Virus record (IMG/VR): IMGVR_UViG_3300043640_000122
Coordinates: 1 to 25,413 of that record
Origin: a virus
Length of the DNA: 25,413 nt
Reading direction: 5' to 3' (one strand)
Both the position numbers and the translations under genes were made by a program. Shown here piece after piece: positions 2,135 to 13,481 of the stretch. Numbering within the stretch: position 1 is the stretch's first letter; every line of letters starts with the position of its first letter. Below the pieces are notes generated by a model. It saw only the letters and a program-made list of their open reading frames with translations, had not been told where the DNA came from and did no database searches.

Positions 2135-2470
2135 ATGAACCACACCCTCACGCTGCCCGACGAGATCCACGGGCAGCTCCAGTTCGAGTTTGAAGCCGGC
2201 TACACGGTCGGCTACGCGGCTGGCGTCCGGGATGAGCGGCAACGCATCGCCAACGGACACGCCGAGCTAGACCGGTCCTGGATCAACCAGGCGGTCCGGA
2301 CCGAAGAAGACCGCATCGCCGAGCGGGCCGCGGCGATGGAACACCACGCCGACCTGCTCGCCGAACGGCTGATCGAGCGGTACGGACGGCGCTACCGGGG
2401 CACCTACCACGGTGGGCCCGTCGACTGGGAGACCGGCGCTCCGCTGCGGCACCTGCGAGCAGTCGCGTGA
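2135..2470 (+). CDS. Hypothetical helical protein upstream of helicase
   Basis: A 111-residue protein starting at ATG 2135 after the hairpin-containing gap that follows ssb; GGGGGA lies about 6-7 bases upstream. The N-terminus (LPDEIHGQLQFEFEAGYTVGYAAGVRDERQR) is followed by an Arg/Glu-rich, probably long-helical middle. The pattern FEAGYTVGYAAGVRDER resembles short actinophage proteins of unknown role that sit next to replication genes. It ends in a GTGA overlap (2467-2470) with the helicase gene, so the two are probably translationally coupled. No enzymatic motif is visible. Confidence 0.65.
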   Translation: MNHTLTLPDEIHGQLQFEFEAGYTVGYAAGVRDERQRIANGHAELDRSWINQAVRTEEDRIAERAAAMEHHADLLAERLIERYGRRYRGTYHGGPVDWETGAPLRHLRAVA

Positions 2471-3978
2471 CCACCGCCTTCGAAGACGACCTCTGGGACG
2501 GCTTCATTGCCACAGAGGCACCCGTAGAACCGGCCGGCGGCGACCTCAACGGAGCACCGAACACGATGGGCGCCTGCCGCCGCACATGGGACGACATCGG
2601 CAACGCTGACCGGCTCGTCGACCACGCTGGACATCGCATCCGGTGGGCCATCGACGCCGAGAAGTGGGCGGTGTGGACCGACGGCAACCATTGGGCCATC
2701 GAGGGCGGCGGGACTCTCATCGTCGGTGTGGCCCGCGAGGTGCTGGACCGGATGCCCTTCGCCGAGGCTCCGCTGTACGACGACACACCGCGCATGAGCG
2801 CGGAGGGCAAGCCGCTGCCGTCACTGCGGGAGGACTTCCTGAAGTTCGTCAAGCGGCAACGGTTCAACACGAAGATGGCCGCGATGGCCGCGGTCGCCCG
2901 GTCGGTGCCGTCCATCCAGGTGCGGATGGACCAGTTCGACTCCCACCCGATGCTGTTCAACTGCCGTAACGGGATCATCGACATGCGCACCGGGGACCTC
3001 CAGCCGCATGACTCGGCGCTGCTCCAGTTGTCGCTGTCCAACGTGGTCTACAACCCGGACGCGAAGGCACCGCTGTGGGAGGCGTTCCTGGCCCGGGTGA
3101 TGCCCGAGAAGGAGCGCCGCGACTACCTGGCCAGGATCAGCGGGTACACGCTGACCGGCGACACCGGCGAGCAGGCCATCTTCTGCCACCACGGCGGCGG
3201 AGCGAACGGCAAATCAGTGTTCATGCGGATCTTGCGGGCGCTGGCTGGGACGTACGGGCAGGCGGTACCGCAAGCCACGCTGTTGACGAAGAGCGGCGAC
3301 GGCATCCCGAACGACGTCGCCCGGATGATCGGTAAGCGGCTGCTGATCACGTCGGAGACCGGCGCCGGGAAGCGACTCGATGACGAGCTAGTCAAGCAGC
3401 TCACCGGTGGCGAAGAGATCAGCGCCAGGTTCATGCGCGGCGAGTTCTTCGACTTCACACCCGTCGGGAAGATCCACCTGATGACCAACCACCTCCCGGT
3501 GATCGGGAGTGGCCACGGCACCGCCCGGCGCCTCCAAGATATCGGGTGGGATGTCACGATCCCGCCGGAGGAGCAGGACAAGTCCCTGGCTGATCGGATC
3601 ATCGCCGAGGAGCTTCCCGGGGTGCTGGCGTGGGCTGTGCGTGGCTGCCTGGAGTGGCGGGAGACCGGGCTGGCCGTGCCCGAGTCGGTGCGGCTCAAGA
3701 CCGCCGAGCACGTCCGGTCCAGCGACCCGCTGGCGCAGTGGCTGGAGGAGCGCACCGACACGGTGGCGGAAGAGGTCACCGAGACTCGCCCGCTGTTCAA
3801 GGACTACCGGGCGTGGGTCGACGAGTCCAACGGCAGGCCGATGACGGAGAAGTCCTTCGTCGACGCGATGGACGAGCGGGGCTTCGTCCGGGACAAGGAC
3901 GGCCACACCCGCCGGTCGGTGATCCGTGGCATCCGGCTGGTGCCGCGCATGCAGCAGGGAGGCGGCTATGGGCTCTGA
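2467..3978 (+). CDS. SF3 helicase (phage/plasmid primase-helicase D5/P4 type, no primase domain)
   Basis: A 503-residue replication helicase expected to unwind phage DNA at the origin using ATP. Residues about 115-235 look like the D5_N domain (NCRNGIIDMRTGDL, RISGYTLTGDTGEQ). The Walker A motif GGGANGKSV is at 243-251, the Walker-B-like segment RLLITSETGAG at 291-301, sensor-1 HLMTNHLP at 337-344, and the arginine-finger region GTARRL at 351-356; this is the superfamily 3 order. About 450-503 is probably a winged-helix tail. P4-type proteins often carry an N-terminal primase; here only about 110 unrecognised residues precede D5_N, and no primase motifs are seen. GTG 2467 overlaps the previous stop (GTGA). 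The 9-bp repeat cluster lies directly downstream, which fits an origin next to its helicase. Confidence 0.92.
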   Translation: MTTAFEDDLWDGFIATEAPVEPAGGDLNGAPNTMGACRRTWDDIGNADRLVDHAGHRIRWAIDAEKWAVWTDGNHWAIEGGGTLIVGVAREVLDRMPFAEAPLYDDTPRMSAEGKPLPSLREDFLKFVKRQRFNTKMAAMAAVARSVPSIQVRMDQFDSHPMLFNCRNGIIDMRTGDLQPHDSALLQLSLSNVVYNPDAKAPLWEAFLARVMPEKERRDYLARISGYTLTGDTGEQAIFCHHGGGANGKSVFMRILRALAGTYGQAVPQATLLTKSGDGIPNDVARMIGKRLLITSETGAGKRLDDELVKQLTGGEEISARFMRGEFFDFTPVGKIHLMTNHLPVIGSGHGTARRLQDIGWDVTIPPEEQDKSLADRIIAEELPGVLAWAVRGCLEWRETGLAVPESVRLKTAEHVRSSDPLAQWLEERTDTVAEEVTETRPLFKDYRAWVDESNGRPMTEKSFVDAMDERGFVRDKDGHTRRSVIRGIRLVPRMQQGGGYGL

Positions 3979-4507
3979 CGCCGGGTTCCGAAGGGGTCGT
4001 CGAAGGGGTTCCCAAGATCAAAGCTCAACCCCTTCGAGCCATTTGACCAGGGATTATGTAGATCTTTCGAAGGGGTCGAAGGGGTCGAAGGGGTTAAGAG
4101 CCCTATTACCTATAAACCAAAACCAAGACGCTCTCTTTGAGATCGGCGACCAACCCGCTGAAACCCCTTCGATGGCTTCGACCCCTTCGAACCCGCAGGT
4201 CACACCCCCGAAGGGGTCGCCTTCGAAGCCTTCGAACCCCTTCGCAGGGCTTGCCCGGGTGGAGATCGGCCCGCTGAAGGCCAAGGTCTGGGCGCCGTTC
4301 TGGGCCCGACCGATCGTCATGAAGGCCCGAGGCTGCCGCTGGTCGACGCCTGACCGCTGCTGGATCATCCCGGCGCGCCGGGCCGACGGCACCGTCACCC
4401 GACTCGAATTCGCCGGCTACGTGGTTCGGGTCATCGATCACGTTGCCGGTACCCGCGACCCGTTGCGGCTCCGCCCGACACCCCTCACCACAAGGAGCAC
4501 CCGGTGA
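3968..4507 (+). CDS. Unknown protein whose 5' half carries the 9-bp repeat cluster
   Basis: A 179-residue product from ATG 3968, overlapping the helicase end by 11 bases; AGGGAGGCGG lies just upstream as a ribosome-binding site. The first ~90 residues are low-complexity (SKGSKGSKG, then Pro/Ser-rich) and are produced by DNA repeats CGAAGGGGT and ACCCCTTCG. Because those repeats fall in more than one reading frame, the DNA rather than the peptide looks constrained. From about residue 95 the sequence looks like a folded domain (VEIGPLKAKVWAPFW, then GCRWSTPDRCWIIPARRADG and LEFAGYVVRVI), with paired Cys and Trp. I do not recognise the family. It ends in a GTGA overlap with the next gene. The base composition of the 5' half is clearly more AT-rich than its neighbours. 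Confidence 0.65.
   Translation: MGSDAGFRRGRRRGSQDQSSTPSSHLTRDYVDLSKGSKGSKGLRALLPINQNQDALFEIGDQPAETPSMASTPSNPQVTPPKGSPSKPSNPFAGLARVEIGPLKAKVWAPFWARPIVMKARGCRWSTPDRCWIIPARRADGTVTRLEFAGYVVRVIDHVAGTRDPLRLRPTPLTTRSTR
3989..4244. repeat. Cluster of ten 9-bp repeats in both orientations (candidate iteron origin)
   Basis: CGAAGGGGT occurs exactly at 3989, 4001, 4068, 4077, 4086 and 4209. Its reverse complement ACCCCTTCG occurs at 4028, 4163, 4181 and 4236. The copies at 4068-4094 are three perfect tandem units. The block 4163-4189 is an inverted three-unit array whose middle unit is degenerate (ATGGCTTCG), so 24 of 27 bases match. These two arrays flank 4095-4162, which includes an AT-rich patch (4091-4140 is 29/50 A+T by my count, containing TATAAACCAAAACCAA). 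The layout resembles iteron-type origins with a melting region and sits next to the SF3 helicase gene. A cluster of regulator-binding sites is the main alternative. Confidence 0.7.
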
Positions 4508-4737
4508 TCATCACCAACTTCGCCACCGACACCAACGACTGGTACGCGTTCTTCACCGACACCAAGGGCGAGGGCAGCACCTGGTCCTGCCCGGTCCTCG
4601 GCTGGGCCACCTGCGAGGGCGAAGAGTCCGGCACGACGTGGATCGAGCCCGTCGTACTCGTCGACCAGAAGACCCCGATGCCGATCAGCCAGCACATGCG
4701 CGGAGCCACCGACGTCACGTACCAGGTGGGCCGGTGA
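4504..4737 (+). CDS. Small hypothetical protein, 77 aa
   Basis: GTG 4504 overlaps the previous stop (GTGA) and has AAGGAG at 4492-4497 as ribosome-binding site. The product is acidic, with many Thr/Asp and aromatic residues (NDWYAFFTDTKGEGSTWSCPVLGW), and looks like a small beta-rich fold; two cysteines (WSCP, ATCEG) are present. It ends in a TGATG overlap with the next gene. No family is recognised and no function is proposed. Confidence 0.65.
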   Translation: MIITNFATDTNDWYAFFTDTKGEGSTWSCPVLGWATCEGEESGTTWIEPVVLVDQKTPMPISQHMRGATDVTYQVGR

Positions 4738-5183: not shown

Positions 5184-5792
5184 GTGGCAAACCTGCTCGC
5201 AGAAATCGCCGAGGCCGCCGACGCGCTCACCGAGCCGTACCAGCACCTCGAACCGATCTTCACCGTCGACCGGCACCGCAACCGCCGGATGAAGTCCGTC
5301 CACGTCACCCGGCTACCCGGACTCCTCGGACAGCTCGCCGAGCAGTTCCATCCCGGCGCCACCGATGAGCAGGGCACCCGCAGCACACCCGGCAGCCGGC
5401 CGCCCGTCAACCTCGACGCCCTGTCCGCGCACACCGCCATCACCATCGGCTCCACCCGCTGGATGTGGTCACTGGGCCTCGACATCCGGAACACCCCAGC
5501 GTCCAACATCCGGGCGCTGGTCGGTGCGGCCAGCACCATGGACTCCGACACACAGCGGGCACTACTGGCCGAACTCCGCCAGTGGCGCCACCAAGCCGAG
5601 GTGTTGACCGGCTGGGTGAGTGCGCCGTACGCGCCACACGGTCCATGCCCGCAGTGCGAAGCCGTCGGAGGACTCCGGGTACGCCTCGACGTCCACACCG
5701 CCACCTGCCTGCGCTGCGCAGCCTGGTGGACGCCCGACACCATCGACGAGCTCGCCGAACACATCCGCACGTTGACCAGCGTGTCCGCTTGA
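5184..5792 (+). CDS. Zinc-ribbon protein of actinophage type, 202 aa
   Basis: GTG 5184 is preceded by GGGGAGGA (5169-5176), a strong ribosome-binding site. The N-terminal ~120 residues (AEAADALTEPYQHLEPIF ... LGQLAEQF) look helical. The C-terminal part has CPQC near residue 155 and CLRC about 20 residues later, followed by a Trp-rich stretch (AAWWTPDTIDEL): a two-knuckle zinc ribbon. I recall proteins of this shape (DUF7341-like) in actinophage genomes at the end of early regions, often of unknown role. It is the last gene before a terminator-like hairpin and the packaging genes. A regulator or DNA-binding function is possible but not shown. Confidence 0.75.
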   Translation: MANLLAEIAEAADALTEPYQHLEPIFTVDRHRNRRMKSVHVTRLPGLLGQLAEQFHPGATDEQGTRSTPGSRPPVNLDALSAHTAITIGSTRWMWSLGLDIRNTPASNIRALVGAASTMDSDTQRALLAELRQWRHQAEVLTGWVSAPYAPHGPCPQCEAVGGLRVRLDVHTATCLRCAAWWTPDTIDELAEHIRTLTSVSA

Positions 5793-6215: not shown

Positions 6216-6383
6216 GCACCAACAACACCAACCCAACCCCACCGCCGAGGGGCATGGGGGGCACCCCCCGATCGTGAAAATGTCCGAATAGGGGCCTGAC
6301 CCCATACCCCCCGGAATTTTTCCGTGGTACCTAGCGGCTCCAATTTCTCCCTGACCTGCTGTTTTTCGACGGAGGCGATTCCG
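6216..6383. other. Hairpin-rich non-coding gap before terminase (possible packaging site)
   Basis: No gene is seen in these 168 bp. The stretch holds GGGGGGCACCCCCC (6256-6269), GGGG-CCTGA-CCCC (6291-6303) and CGGAATTTTTCCG (6312-6324), a series of short inverted repeats with G/C runs. In many cos phages the cohesive-end and terminase-binding sites lie directly before the small terminase gene, so this is the natural place to look for cos or pac. The termini cannot be determined from the sequence alone. Position 6371-6375 (GGAGG) is the ribosome-binding site for the next gene. Confidence 0.4.
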
Positions 6384-6905
6384 GTGCCTCGTACGAAGAA
6401 GGCCGCCGGCACTGCGGTCGACACTCGCAACGGCCGCCGGGCTGACCTTCAGGTTGTGGCCGGCACCCGGTTCGATCCGCCGGAAGGCATCAGTGACCAG
6501 GCGGTCGAAGCCTGGAATGCCTACTGGGCGGACAACGTGGCCCAGGTGCAGACCCCGGTGGACCGCCCGGTGTTGCTGCGCTGGGTCACCGAGATGGACC
6601 GGTACCTGCGCCTGGTCGCCGAGGCTGACCGGCAGCCGGTGGTCAAGGGGTCGCAGGGTCAGCCGGTCGAGAACCCGTTGTATGGCGTGGCGTACAAGGC
6701 GCTGGCTGTGGTCCAGGCGTGCGAGAAGCAGCTGGGCATGGGCCCGCTGAACCGCTCCGCTTTGGGCATCGCGGTGATCGCAGAGGTCAAGTCGCTGGCC
6801 GAGATGAACGCCGGATACGGGGGTGGTCCGGATGCCGGTCAGCACTCCGACGAAGCCCCGAGCCCGCAGGACGACCCGCGCGTCATCAGCATCACCGCCC
6901 GCTGA
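6384..6905 (+). CDS. terS: Terminase small subunit (P27 family)
   Basis: A 173-residue small terminase that would recognise the packaging site and hand DNA to the large subunit. GTG 6384 has GGAGG at 6371-6375; the upstream extension to 6324 contains the CGGAA/TTCCG hairpin and is rejected. The layout matches the P27/phage terminase small-subunit family: a basic N-terminus (VPRTKKAAG), then FDPPEGISDQAVEAWNAYW, VDRPVLLRWVTEMDRYLR, and a C-terminal helical part with YKALAVVQACEKQLGMGPLNRSAL, where the GMGP/LNRSA segment is characteristic. Its end overlaps the large-subunit start by about 74 bases in another frame. Confidence 0.9.
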   Translation: MPRTKKAAGTAVDTRNGRRADLQVVAGTRFDPPEGISDQAVEAWNAYWADNVAQVQTPVDRPVLLRWVTEMDRYLRLVAEADRQPVVKGSQGQPVENPLYGVAYKALAVVQACEKQLGMGPLNRSALGIAVIAEVKSLAEMNAGYGGGPDAGQHSDEAPSPQDDPRVISITAR

Positions 6906-8454
6906 CCCGGGCTGCGGGGCGTGCGGATGGAAGCCCGCGGCGAAGGAACTGTGGCCCACCCATGGCGGGCTGGCCGTGCGGTGGATCGAGGATAATTGCA
7001 TCTGCGGCGAAGGCGACTTCTACGGCCAGAGGATCAAGCTGCGGGCCGATCAGCGGCTGTTCCTCTGGCGCTGGTATGAGCACTGCCCGAACTGCGACCA
7101 GTGGCGCTATGACGAGGCGTTGCGGGGCGAGGCGACCGGCGGCGGCAAAACGACTTTTATCGCCGCATTAGTGGTGTTGGAGTTCGCAGGCCCGGCACCG
7201 ATCGCCGTGTCCAGCCCGAACATCCCGATTGCTGCGGCGTCGTTCGAGCAGGCCGACTTGCTGTTCGGGACCGTGGCCACGATGTGCGGCGGCCGGGACC
7301 AGATGGCGAAGGAGTCCCCGCTTTGCGGGTTCTTCGAGGTGTACGACACGGAGATCAAATTCTCCGATGGGCGACCGGGCCGGATCTTCCGCATCGCCGC
7401 GGTGGCCGGCACGAACGAGGGCGGCTTGCCGACGCTGTTCGTCCGCGATGAACTCCACGAGTGGGGCGAGCCTGGCTCCCGGAAGGCACGCGTCGCGACG
7501 GTGGTCGGCAAGAGCACCCGGAAGCGCCGCACCGCGCACGGCTCGGGCCGGATCATCTCGCTGTCGACCGCGGGCTTCGACGTGAACAACTCGTTCCTGG
7601 GCCAGCTGTACAAGCTGGGCAAGCGGGTCGAGCGCAACCCCAAGGTCTCACCCCGGTTCCTGATGGACTGGTCCGAGGCGCCCGACGGGCTGAACTTCAA
7701 GCTGGCCAAGCATCGGGAGCAGGCGGTCAAGGCCGCATCCGGCGCGGCAGGTGTCCTCTGGGCGGTTGCCGACCGGGTCAACGACTGGGGTAAGCCCGCG
7801 TTCCCGTCGCACGAATGGATCCGGTACTTCGCGAACCGCTGGGTCGACGTCGCCGAAGACTCATGGATGCGCGACCACCCGGGCGCCTGGACGGCCTGCC
7901 AGGGCAAATGGAAGTCCGACCCCGCGAACCCATTCGTCGTCGCGGTCGACATGGCCCTGAAGCGGGACAGCGTCGCGGTGGACCGCATCGAGCAGCTGCC
8001 CGACGGCCGCTTCGCGGTTACCTCCCGGATCTGGGAACCGACCGGTGGGCCGATCGACCACCTTGACGTGTTCAACCATGCCAAGGGCCTGGCCGTCGGT
8101 AGCGGCTTCCGTGGCGTCGTCTATGACCCGCGCTTCTTCGAACTGCCGGCCCGGATGCTGGAGGACTCCGGCGTTCTGGCTATCGAGTTCGACCAGTCTC
8201 CGGTCCGGATGGCCCCGGCGTGCGGGCTGGCCTTCGACCTGATCACCGGCAAGCGCATCGTGCACGACGGTGACCCGGAGCTGACCGCCCACATCAACGC
8301 CGCGGTGAAGCGCGAGCAGGAGCGAGGGTTCACCTTGTCGAAGGGCAAGAGCAAGCGCCACATCGATGCCGCGGTCGCCCTGTGCATGGGCCTGTGGATA
8401 TTGCACGAGGTGCCGGCGGCCCCTCCACCGAAGCCGTGGGTGATGTACGGGTGA
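6832..8454 (+). CDS. terL: Terminase large subunit
   Basis: A 540-residue packaging motor: ATPase plus nuclease. Numbered from ATG 6832, Walker A ATGGGKTT is at 101-108, Walker B LPTLFVRDE at 199-207 with the Asp-Glu pair, and the coupling motif STAG at 245-248. The nuclease domain shows AVDMALKRD (Asp373), VVYDP (Asp432) and HIDAAVAL (Asp512), the expected acidic triad. The N-terminus has CGAC and later CPNC before the ATPase domain, possibly a zinc knuckle. GTG 6823 is a second possible start; ATG 6832 has GGGGGTGG upstream at better spacing. It overlaps terS by 74 bases and ends in GTGA with the next gene. Confidence 0.95.
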   Translation: MPVSTPTKPRARRTTRASSASPPADPGCGACGWKPAAKELWPTHGGLAVRWIEDNCICGEGDFYGQRIKLRADQRLFLWRWYEHCPNCDQWRYDEALRGEATGGGKTTFIAALVVLEFAGPAPIAVSSPNIPIAAASFEQADLLFGTVATMCGGRDQMAKESPLCGFFEVYDTEIKFSDGRPGRIFRIAAVAGTNEGGLPTLFVRDELHEWGEPGSRKARVATVVGKSTRKRRTAHGSGRIISLSTAGFDVNNSFLGQLYKLGKRVERNPKVSPRFLMDWSEAPDGLNFKLAKHREQAVKAASGAAGVLWAVADRVNDWGKPAFPSHEWIRYFANRWVDVAEDSWMRDHPGAWTACQGKWKSDPANPFVVAVDMALKRDSVAVDRIEQLPDGRFAVTSRIWEPTGGPIDHLDVFNHAKGLAVGSGFRGVVYDPRFFELPARMLEDSGVLAIEFDQSPVRMAPACGLAFDLITGKRIVHDGDPELTAHINAAVKREQERGFTLSKGKSKRHIDAAVALCMGLWILHEVPAAPPPKPWVMYG

Positions 8455-8636: not shown

Positions 8637-10026
8637 CACCGTGGCCCGGTACAGCCTCGACGACTACGGCCGGGACCTGACCTCCGCGTACGGGAACTTC
8701 GGACTGTACGGGTCGGGCACCTCGCCCTACCAGAAGACCGAGGACATCGAGAACAGCTTTGCCGGATACACCCAGGCGGCGTACAAGTCCAACGGGGTCG
8801 TGTTCGCGGTCATCTTGACCAGGCTGTTGCTGTTCTCCGAGGCCCGTTTCCAGTGGCAGAGGATCAATAGTGGCCGGCCGGGTGACCTGTTCGGCACTGC
8901 CGATCTGGCGCTGCTGGAGATGCCCTGGCCGAACGGCACCACCGGGGAACTGCTGGCCCGCATGGAACAAGATGCTTCGCTGGCCGGCAACTTCTACGCG
9001 GTGCGTGAGGCGGAGCGGCTACGCAGGCTACGCCCAGACTGGGTGACGATCGTTCTGTCGGCGCCGCCGGCCGAGGCTACTCAGTCCGACGTGATCGGCT
9101 ACTGGTATCACCCGGGCCGGGTCATGGCCGGGCTGGAACCCACCTCGACCGATGAGCTGTTCCTGCCGGAGGAGACCTGCCACTGGTCGCCGGTGCCGGA
9201 CCCCGATGCCCAATATCGCGGAATGTCCTGGTTGACGCCGGTGGTCCGGGAGATTCAGGCGGACCGGGCCGCGACCGAGCACAAGCTTCGGTTCTTCGAG
9301 AACGGCGCGACTCTGGGCCCGGTCATCTCCCTGAAGGAAACGGTGACGGCCGAGCAGTTCAAAGAGTTCATCGCCGAGACGAACGCTGCCCACAAGGGCG
9401 TAGAGAACGCCTACAAGCCGCTGTACGTCGGCGGCGGGGCGGACGTCACTCTGGCCACGGCCGACATGCGGCAGCTCGATTTCAAGGGCACCCAGGGCGC
9501 CGGGGAAACTCGGATCTGCGCGGCCGGCCACGTTCCCCCGATCATCGTTGGCCTGTCCGAGGGTTTGCAGGCGTCGACCTATTCGAACTATGCGCAGGCG
9601 CGCCGGGCGTTCGGTGACGGCTGGGCCCGGCCGCAGTGGCGTTCGGCGTGTGCGGCGCTGGCCAGCATCACCGATGTGCCGGCCGGGACCACACCCGGCA
9701 CAGTGCGGCTCTGGTACGACGACCGGGATATTGCCTTCCTGCGCGAGGACCAGGCCGATGCGGCGAAGATCGCCCAGACGGTGGCGATCACCATCAGGAC
9801 CTACACCGATGCGGGCTTCGAACCGAAGTCCGCGGTTGCCGCCGCGGTGGCCTCCGACCCGACGCTGCTCGTGCATTCGGGTTTGTACTCGGTGCAGTTG
9901 ACTCCGCCGGGTACAGCAGCCGCGCCGGGTAGCCCGGCGGCGGAAGGCACCCTGCCGGCACCTGAAGACACGCCAGCCGACGAGCCGGCCCCCGATACGA
10001 ACCCGGATGAGGTGGAGGCGCCATGA
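8605..10026 (+). CDS. Portal protein (HK97-type)
   Basis: A 473-residue portal that would form the dodecameric ring at the capsid vertex and the docking site for terminase. Family-like segments include NGVVFAVILTRLLLFSEARF in the N-terminal part, MSWLTPVVREIQADRAATEHK near residue 205, FFENGATLGPVISL, and the C-terminal half GETRICAAGHVPPIIVGLSEG with STYSNYAQARRAF. The C-terminus is an Ala/Pro/Glu-rich tail. GTG 8605 is preferred because AAGGA (8592-8596) lies 8 bases upstream; GTG 8599 is too close to it. The gene ends in an ATGA overlap with the protease gene. Order terL-portal-protease-capsid is classical. Confidence 0.93.
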   Translation: MKLWDLLRAGNTVARYSLDDYGRDLTSAYGNFGLYGSGTSPYQKTEDIENSFAGYTQAAYKSNGVVFAVILTRLLLFSEARFQWQRINSGRPGDLFGTADLALLEMPWPNGTTGELLARMEQDASLAGNFYAVREAERLRRLRPDWVTIVLSAPPAEATQSDVIGYWYHPGRVMAGLEPTSTDELFLPEETCHWSPVPDPDAQYRGMSWLTPVVREIQADRAATEHKLRFFENGATLGPVISLKETVTAEQFKEFIAETNAAHKGVENAYKPLYVGGGADVTLATADMRQLDFKGTQGAGETRICAAGHVPPIIVGLSEGLQASTYSNYAQARRAFGDGWARPQWRSACAALASITDVPAGTTPGTVRLWYDDRDIAFLREDQADAAKIAQTVAITIRTYTDAGFEPKSAVAAAVASDPTLLVHSGLYSVQLTPPGTAAAPGSPAAEGTLPAPEDTPADEPAPDTNPDEVEAP

Positions 10027-12770: not shown

Positions 12771-13481
12771 TTGTCACAGGTATTCGTGGCGTGGCTGCAC
12801 CCCGGCGACGTCAGCTCGGCGTTCGCCGAGTCCCTGTCCGGCATGCTCGCGTGGGACTTCCTGCGCCAGACCGAACGCGACCTGCCCCGCCAGCTCACCG
12901 GGATGCGCGGCTTCCACGCCGGCGTGAACATCGCCGGCCCCCGCAACGGCGTGGTCCGGGAGTTCCTGGCCCGGCCGGAGTGGGGCGACTGGCTGCTTCA
13001 GATCGACGTGGACATGCTGTTCGCCCCGGACTCGGTGGAGAAGCTGCTCGCCGCCGCGGACCCGGTGTCCGCCCCGGTGGTCGGCGGGTTGTGCTTCGGC
13101 GCGACCGACGGCGAACTGTGGCCCACCCTCTACGACCTCACCGAGGGCGACGACGGCCCGTACCTGATCCGGCGGCCCACGTTCGAGCTGGACACCATGC
13201 AGCGGGTCACGGCGACCGGCGGGGCGTTCCTGATGATGCACCGCTCGGTGCTGGAAGCGGTGCGGGACAAGGCTTTCAATGCGGCGTATCCGTGGTTCCA
13301 GGAAACGGAACTGTGCGGCGAGCCGTGCGGCGAGGACCTGACGTTCTGCCTGCGCGTCGGTCTGGCGGGGTACTGGGTGCACGTCAACACCGGCGTGCGC
13401 ATCGGGCATGTGAAGCCCACCGTGCTCGGCGCGGCCCGGTATCTGGCCCAGCAGGCGATGCAGGAGCAGGCCAATGACTGA
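12771..13481 (+). CDS. GT-A-like glycosyltransferase (first of two)
   Basis: A 236-residue protein with glycosyltransferase features: an N-terminal strand VFVAWLHPGDV, then WLLQIDVDMLFAPDSVEKLL, where Asp79-Val-Asp81 is a DxD metal/nucleotide-sugar motif. VTATGGAFLMMHRSVLEAV and GEDLTFCLRVGLAGYWVHVN (187-206) follow, as in GT2/GT-A enzymes, with His213 near the C-terminus. It would transfer sugar from a nucleotide donor, probably to a virion protein given its place after the capsid gene; that target is inferred. The start is TTG 12771, with AGGAG at 12761-12765. It overlaps the next gene by 8 bases. No membrane segment is seen. Confidence 0.8.
   Translation: MSQVFVAWLHPGDVSSAFAESLSGMLAWDFLRQTERDLPRQLTGMRGFHAGVNIAGPRNGVVREFLARPEWGDWLLQIDVDMLFAPDSVEKLLAAADPVSAPVVGGLCFGATDGELWPTLYDLTEGDDGPYLIRRPTFELDTMQRVTATGGAFLMMHRSVLEAVRDKAFNAAYPWFQETELCGEPCGEDLTFCLRVGLAGYWVHVNTGVRIGHVKPTVLGAARYLAQQAMQEQAND

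Follow-up and report, generated by a model that had tools for sequence, protein, structure and literature searches.

A mirrored repeat array beside a D5-type helicase gene as a very probable phage replication origin

Introduction

What is the role of a dense cluster of nine-base repeats lying next to a helicase gene in a phage genome? The window analysed here, a viral contig taken at its full length of 25,413 bases, carries ten exact copies of CGAAGGGGT at 3989-4244, six on the plus and four on the minus strand. A sequence-only reading had proposed that the cluster is a replication origin beside an SF3 helicase, that the N-terminal region of the helicase might bind it and that its symmetric layout may be a distinct type. 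Classical iteron plasmid origins (RepA/RepE) consist of one-sided direct repeats with DnaA boxes and a Rep protein that is not a helicase. The alpha protein of phage P4 is a helicase-primase that itself binds short repeats (ori, crr) without a separate loader, and P4 uses two separate repeat regions. Here we argue that the array very probably serves as an origin like those of phage A2 and the SaPI islands, with the C-terminal wing of the helicase as its reader.

Results

Anatomy of the array

The features of the locus are as follows.
2467-3978, plus: D5/SF3-type replicative helicase, 503 aa, presumed initiator (Pfam, PHROG, AF2 model)
3784-3939, plus: codons of the predicted C-terminal winged helix, residues 440-491 (AF2 model)
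about 3886-3939, plus: wing codons, RR482-483 included (AF2 model; unit correlation peak at 474-485)
3968-4507, plus: small ORF, 179 aa, overlapping the helicase stop; the array in its first half reads as low-complexity peptide
3989-3997 and 4001-4009, plus: left outer units CGAAGGGGT, exact matches
4028-4036, minus: left outer unit, reversed, exact match
4044-4051, plus: degenerate TGACCTGC-like box of the left arm, TGACCAGG, 2 mismatches
4068-4094, plus: left inner tandem of three exact units
4095-4162, no strand: spacer, 68 bp, predicted melting region (stability minimum; gap as in relatives)
4163-4189, minus: inverted inner array of the right arm, two exact units on either side of a degenerate one (24/27)
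4195-4202, minus: exact TGACCTGC box of the right arm, mirrored in Streptomyces relatives
4209-4217, plus: right outer unit, forward, exact match
4236-4244, minus: right outer unit, reversed, exact match

The unit is confined to the array: counted on both strands, no further exact copy occurs in the 25,413-nt window, where base composition predicts 0.33 copies against the ten counted, in agreement with the earlier estimate of about one or less by chance. The ten exact copies within 256 bp and the perfect forward tandem facing a 24/27 inverted array over a 68-bp spacer, as first described, were all reproduced, and a repeat finder paired the two inner arms as inverted repeats of 30 nt with 90% complementarity, 66 nt apart. 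The sides are mixed, with a reversed copy in the left flank (4028-4036) and a forward copy in the right (4209-4217), and the outer units are less regular here than in the Streptomyces loci described below. The array centre lies about 150 bp past the helicase stop. The copies had been said to fall in two frames of the overlapping ORF; we count two codon phases for the forward copies and three for all copies. The 179-aa ORF at 3968-4507 matched no Pfam or PHROG family.

The spacer is 53% AT in a window of about 67% GC. By nearest-neighbour stability, the least stable 40 bp of the entire 25.4 kb are 4103-4142 and the least stable 50 bp are 4094-4143, while the least stable 70 bp, 4052-4121, overlap the left arm; the melting region thus coincides with the array, and the AT-rich patch noticed by eye in the spacer corresponds to a window-wide stability minimum within or beside it. 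Cumulative GC skew turns at 4100, as a maximum, whereas a standard origin is a minimum. DnaA boxes (TTNTCCACA, 0-1 mismatch) are absent from the array region and number 9 in the window against 9.3 expected. No Rfam family was found in the window. A 141-nt single strand folds strongly (z -6.0) because the arms are inverted, and a separate function for this fold was dropped.

The helicase and its neighbours

The protein encoded at 2467-3978 matches Pfam D5_N (5.6e-23) and DUF5906 as well as the PHROG family 'DNA primase' (4.7e-111). Its AF2 model (pLDDT 91.5) matches the folds of D5-type hexameric helicases, among them, strongly, the SaPI5 primase-helicase (7ola), which also gives the best profile match of all solved structures. 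The gene adjacent to the array is thus a D5_N/SF3 helicase with a predicted C-terminal DNA-binding fold, a winged helix with helices at 440-453 and 461-470 and strands at 474-477 and 484-491. In the same model, residues 474-485 form the hairpin wing that follows the recognition helix. Upstream, ORF 1417-2016 encodes a single-strand binding protein (PF00436); downstream are genes for terminase, portal and capsid. The window helicase is without an N-terminal Prim-Pol domain, which the relative L010 carries, and no separate primase was identified in addition to this helicase. Further along, ORF 13474-14202 matches both a PHROG DNA methyltransferase (1.4e-50) and a PHROG glycosyltransferase (5.9e-39) and sits beside a second glycosyltransferase-like ORF (12771-13481).

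Distribution of the layout among relatives

A search for similar DNA among annotated phages and plasmids, made with the array and with the gene behind it, gave no meaningful match. Relatives were sought by the array itself, with an 18-mer in viral contigs and then with the inner pair at its gap. The 18-mer, CGAAGGGGTCGAAGGGGT, occurs in 12 viral contigs, mostly as one tandem pair without an array, and the inner-pair matches L016-L020, L022, L025 and L026, a single pair each, were set aside as probable chance. The search yielded the Streptomyces-type viral contigs L004, L006, L008, L010 and L021 and, in the genome collection, four Streptomyces records (L027, L028, L030, L031) and two contigs of one Firmicutes MAG (L029 and L032); a relaxed unit search added L033, L034, L036, L037 and L038. 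Wherever a D5 helicase is recognisable in these loci, the array directly follows its stop. In each of four Streptomyces host genomes the tandem-plus-inverted pattern occupies a single place, except that one of them has an additional inner pair, probably by chance. Since the tandem form is confined to 2 of 393 Streptomyces genomes, both already found, this prophage type is rare.

How common is the general layout? Two alignment-guided scans, together with the earlier loci, gave 145 distinct helicase C-termini that are followed by a sufficient length of DNA. Any 7-mer present at least four times, forward to the left and reversed to the right of a 45-110 bp gap, was scored as an array. Such a two-sided inverted array lies within 640 bp after the helicase stop in 86 of the 145 loci (59%), as against 2-4% in controls (5/142 inside the gene, 4/136 at +900 to +1600, 3/145 shuffled). 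Lactobacillus phage A2 is among the array-bearing loci, and the layout is also present in Bacillus phi105, Staphylococcus DSP2 and Listeria FHC15313-PLM26. The units vary among phages (GCGAGGG, ACGGGAG, GTGACGG, GTTACT and others). Two types of Lactobacillus phage helicase that differ mainly in the wing, L062 and L064, have units TGTGACGG and AGGGAGG. The rule is not universal, as about 41% of the helicase loci have no array under it and five Arthrobacter, Microbacterium and Curtobacterium phages with a related primase-helicase and a DNA polymerase I (L041-L045) have none after the helicase; their origins must look different or sit elsewhere. The suggestion of a distinct origin type is consequently unsupported: the two-sided form is widespread in the D5-helicase family, and the symmetric layout is a common one of its phages.

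Mirror symmetry and a second box

Six distinct Streptomyces-type loci (L004, L008, L010, L021, L028, L030) are mirror-symmetric to the base: measured from the centre, the unit edges fall at +/-36.5, 45.5, 78.5, 90.5, 101.5 and 111.5 bp, apart from one or two positions that single loci lack or have in addition. In L049 the spacings between units are the same, and the centre is 11 bp longer, about one helical turn. Across the loci with CGAAGG[GA] units the gap between 7-mer cores is 61-84 bp, and the window spacer agrees in length. A second box, TGACCTGC, is mirrored at -64 and +57 in the Streptomyces-type loci, L010 included. In the window the right box is at +67 (4195-4202), shifted by about one 9-bp unit, as fits the presence of a third tandem unit in the window; the left box is degenerate. 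Because near-matches to this box occur in L053 and L203, whose units differ, sequence comparison suggests that its reader may be something other than the wing.

Units covary with the wing of the helicase

Similarity of units was compared with similarity of helicases over the 72 loci that scored 5 or more. With the helicase body held constant, wing and unit similarity correlate at a partial r of 0.48, and none of 2000 permutations reached as high, a figure that serves as a guide only, since the wing borders were chosen after inspection of the alignment and the loci are non-independent. With the wing held constant, the body gives -0.04. Among pairs with bodies more than 75% identical, mean unit similarity is 0.89 where the wings are alike (92 pairs) and 0.53 where they are unlike (108 pairs). 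Scanning the final 150 residues in stretches of 12 puts the highest partial r, 0.62, at residues 474-485, VRDKDGHTRRSV. Joint inheritance may account for some of the covariation, because the wing lies near the array; yet the last ten residues, nearer still, reach 0.36 in the same scan, so linkage alone does not explain it fully.

Of 143 loci, 15 carry CGAAGG[GA] arrays, and in every one of these the helicase has xRR[AS] within its final 75 residues; this loose motif also occurs in six loci that do not have the CGAAGG[GA] array, at other positions by inspection. On trees of the helicase body the CGAAGG[GA] label arose at least twice: a large, quickly built tree calls for three changes, and a more careful one of 36 rows, with L029 omitted, calls for two, none of 200 bootstraps allowing one. 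The loci belong to two or three distinct lineages of the helicase. L053, sister of the window's clade, is without the unit and without the wing. The Streptomyces locus L202, with wing TDRKS and units CGAAGGC/CGAAGGG, stands near the rule, one residue and one base being changed. Comparison of the sequences points to the C-terminus of the helicase as the reader of the units, and what covaries is the wing of the winged helix there, not the N-terminal region first named as the binder.

Some further loci are recorded as observations. L023 encodes a VapE-like helicase, not D5_N, that ends in KHPKTRRMEYRCDTR (noticed afterwards and offered as a lead only); two CGAAGGGGT arrays, at 5398-5700 and 8640-8880, flank its operon of primase and VapE-like helicase and recall the two repeat regions of phage P4. 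In L032, from the same Firmicutes MAG as L029, an array at 2689-2854 with spacing nearly identical to that of L029 adjoins a valS-like gene. No helicase was recognised in this 8-kb locus, and its array is possibly a remnant or decoy origin. L035 has a two-sided (T/C)GAAGGGAT array at 3990-4215 upstream of terminase genes, and no helicase was recognised on this 4.7-kb contig.

Discussion

The proposal of an origin beside an SF3 helicase is supported by the array position kept in relatives, the annotated A2 origin at the homologous place, the melting minimum and the covariation of unit and helicase. Comparison with known systems places it more closely. The window shares clustered short repeats beside an AT-rich region with classical iteron origins, from which it differs in its inverted units on two sides and the lack of a DnaA-box excess. 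As P4 alpha is generally described, a self-binding helicase is the likeness and the repeat regions are the difference. The origin of phage A2, taken from its GenBank annotation (AJ251789, rep_origin 32208-32717, 3' of primase ORF35), likewise lies just after a D5-type primase-helicase gene and has inverted units on both sides of an AT-rich spacer of about 69 bp. The A2 unit is ACGGGAGGA rather than CGAAGGGGT, its spacer is about 81% AT, its array is mostly non-coding and its protein, annotated as a primase, has 773 aa against 503 aa in the window. The Rep protein of SaPI5/SaPIbov1 is, in a secondary account, a self-loading helicase, and the iterons that its C-terminal domain recognises lie immediately behind the rep gene (PMC7581432, citing Ubeda et al. 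2007); on that account the likeness lies in the position of the iterons and in C-terminal recognition, and the difference in the iteron sequences and in the carriers being satellite islands instead of a phage. SCCmec Cch2 is similarly a D5_N helicase whose isolated C-terminal domain binds a putative origin downstream of its gene, here with only three direct AAGTG iterons and not a two-sided mirrored array (PMC7581432). Position, iterons and C-terminal recognition are, as far as these accounts go, already published for SaPI Rep and Cch2, and with such precedents the window origin belongs to a known kind.

Could the units have another role? Operators through which a phage repressor, or the helicase itself, controls the small downstream genes would suit an array at the start of a small ORF, and iterons often double in autoregulation. 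The scan for sigma-70-like promoters, which covers actinobacterial promoters poorly, found none in 3900-4560, and operators leave unexplained both the constant, easily melted 61-84 bp centre with its mirrored arms and the annotated A2 origin at the homologous place; we consider this reading improbable. The terminase genes at 6324-8454, about 2 kb downstream, might recommend a packaging (pac) or partition site in place of an origin. In many prophages, however, both the occurrence of the array and the sequence of its units go with the helicase, and no ParA/ParB-like gene is present among the proteins scanned, which makes such a site very improbable. That the repeats are kept as a coding feature, an SKG/AKG/NPF-rich peptide of the small ORF, draws on a frame that stays open through the array and on similar open frames in L008 and L010. 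Against this, the units lie in several codon phases and both orientations, their spacing in relatives is 9, 10, 11, 12 and 21 bp, and most of the A2 array and the counterpart repeats of phi105 sit between annotated genes. Units are thus kept in relatives in several phases and in non-coding DNA, as the origin proposal had anticipated, and the peptide explanation, scarcely credible on these grounds, was rejected.

How would an origin of this kind operate? The anatomy, the melting minimum, the conserved position, the mirror symmetry with its spacing and the unit-wing covariation are computed features of the locus; from them we infer binding, hexamer loading, melting and a bidirectional start. The array would serve as the replication origin of the phage, and copies of the D5/SF3 helicase, encoded directly upstream, would bind the CGAAGGGGT units via the C-terminal winged helix, with the wing residues (...DGHTRRSV...) reading the unit. 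The mirrored arms would seat one hexamer per side, the two facing each other over the AT-rich spacer of about 70 bp, which would then melt and be unwound in both directions.

What are the implications for the family? The wing-to-unit correspondence is the new, testable part of the proposal. We lean, by a small measure, towards the view that in D5-type phage helicases the origin unit is set by a short modular reading head made up of roughly twelve residues in the C-terminal wing. This head would be swapped or evolve afresh whatever the history of the remaining protein, with xRR[AS] specifying CGAAGG[GA]. This pairing may recur in actinobacterial phages, the viral clade L033-L038 and a Firmicutes MAG, and possibly in the VapE-type L023. 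The literature searched holds no description of an origin of the two-sided D5-helicase kind for actinobacterial phages, and the layout supplies predicted origins for dozens of phages and prophages, actinobacterial ones included. It also supplies a hypothesis for how a self-loading helicase reads its origin, in which a swapped wing means a changed unit. If the reading-head view is true, origin sequence would be predictable from protein and protein from origin sequence, and this would permit tests of origin specificity, of prophage incompatibility and of origin-carrying plasmids that inhibit phage growth.
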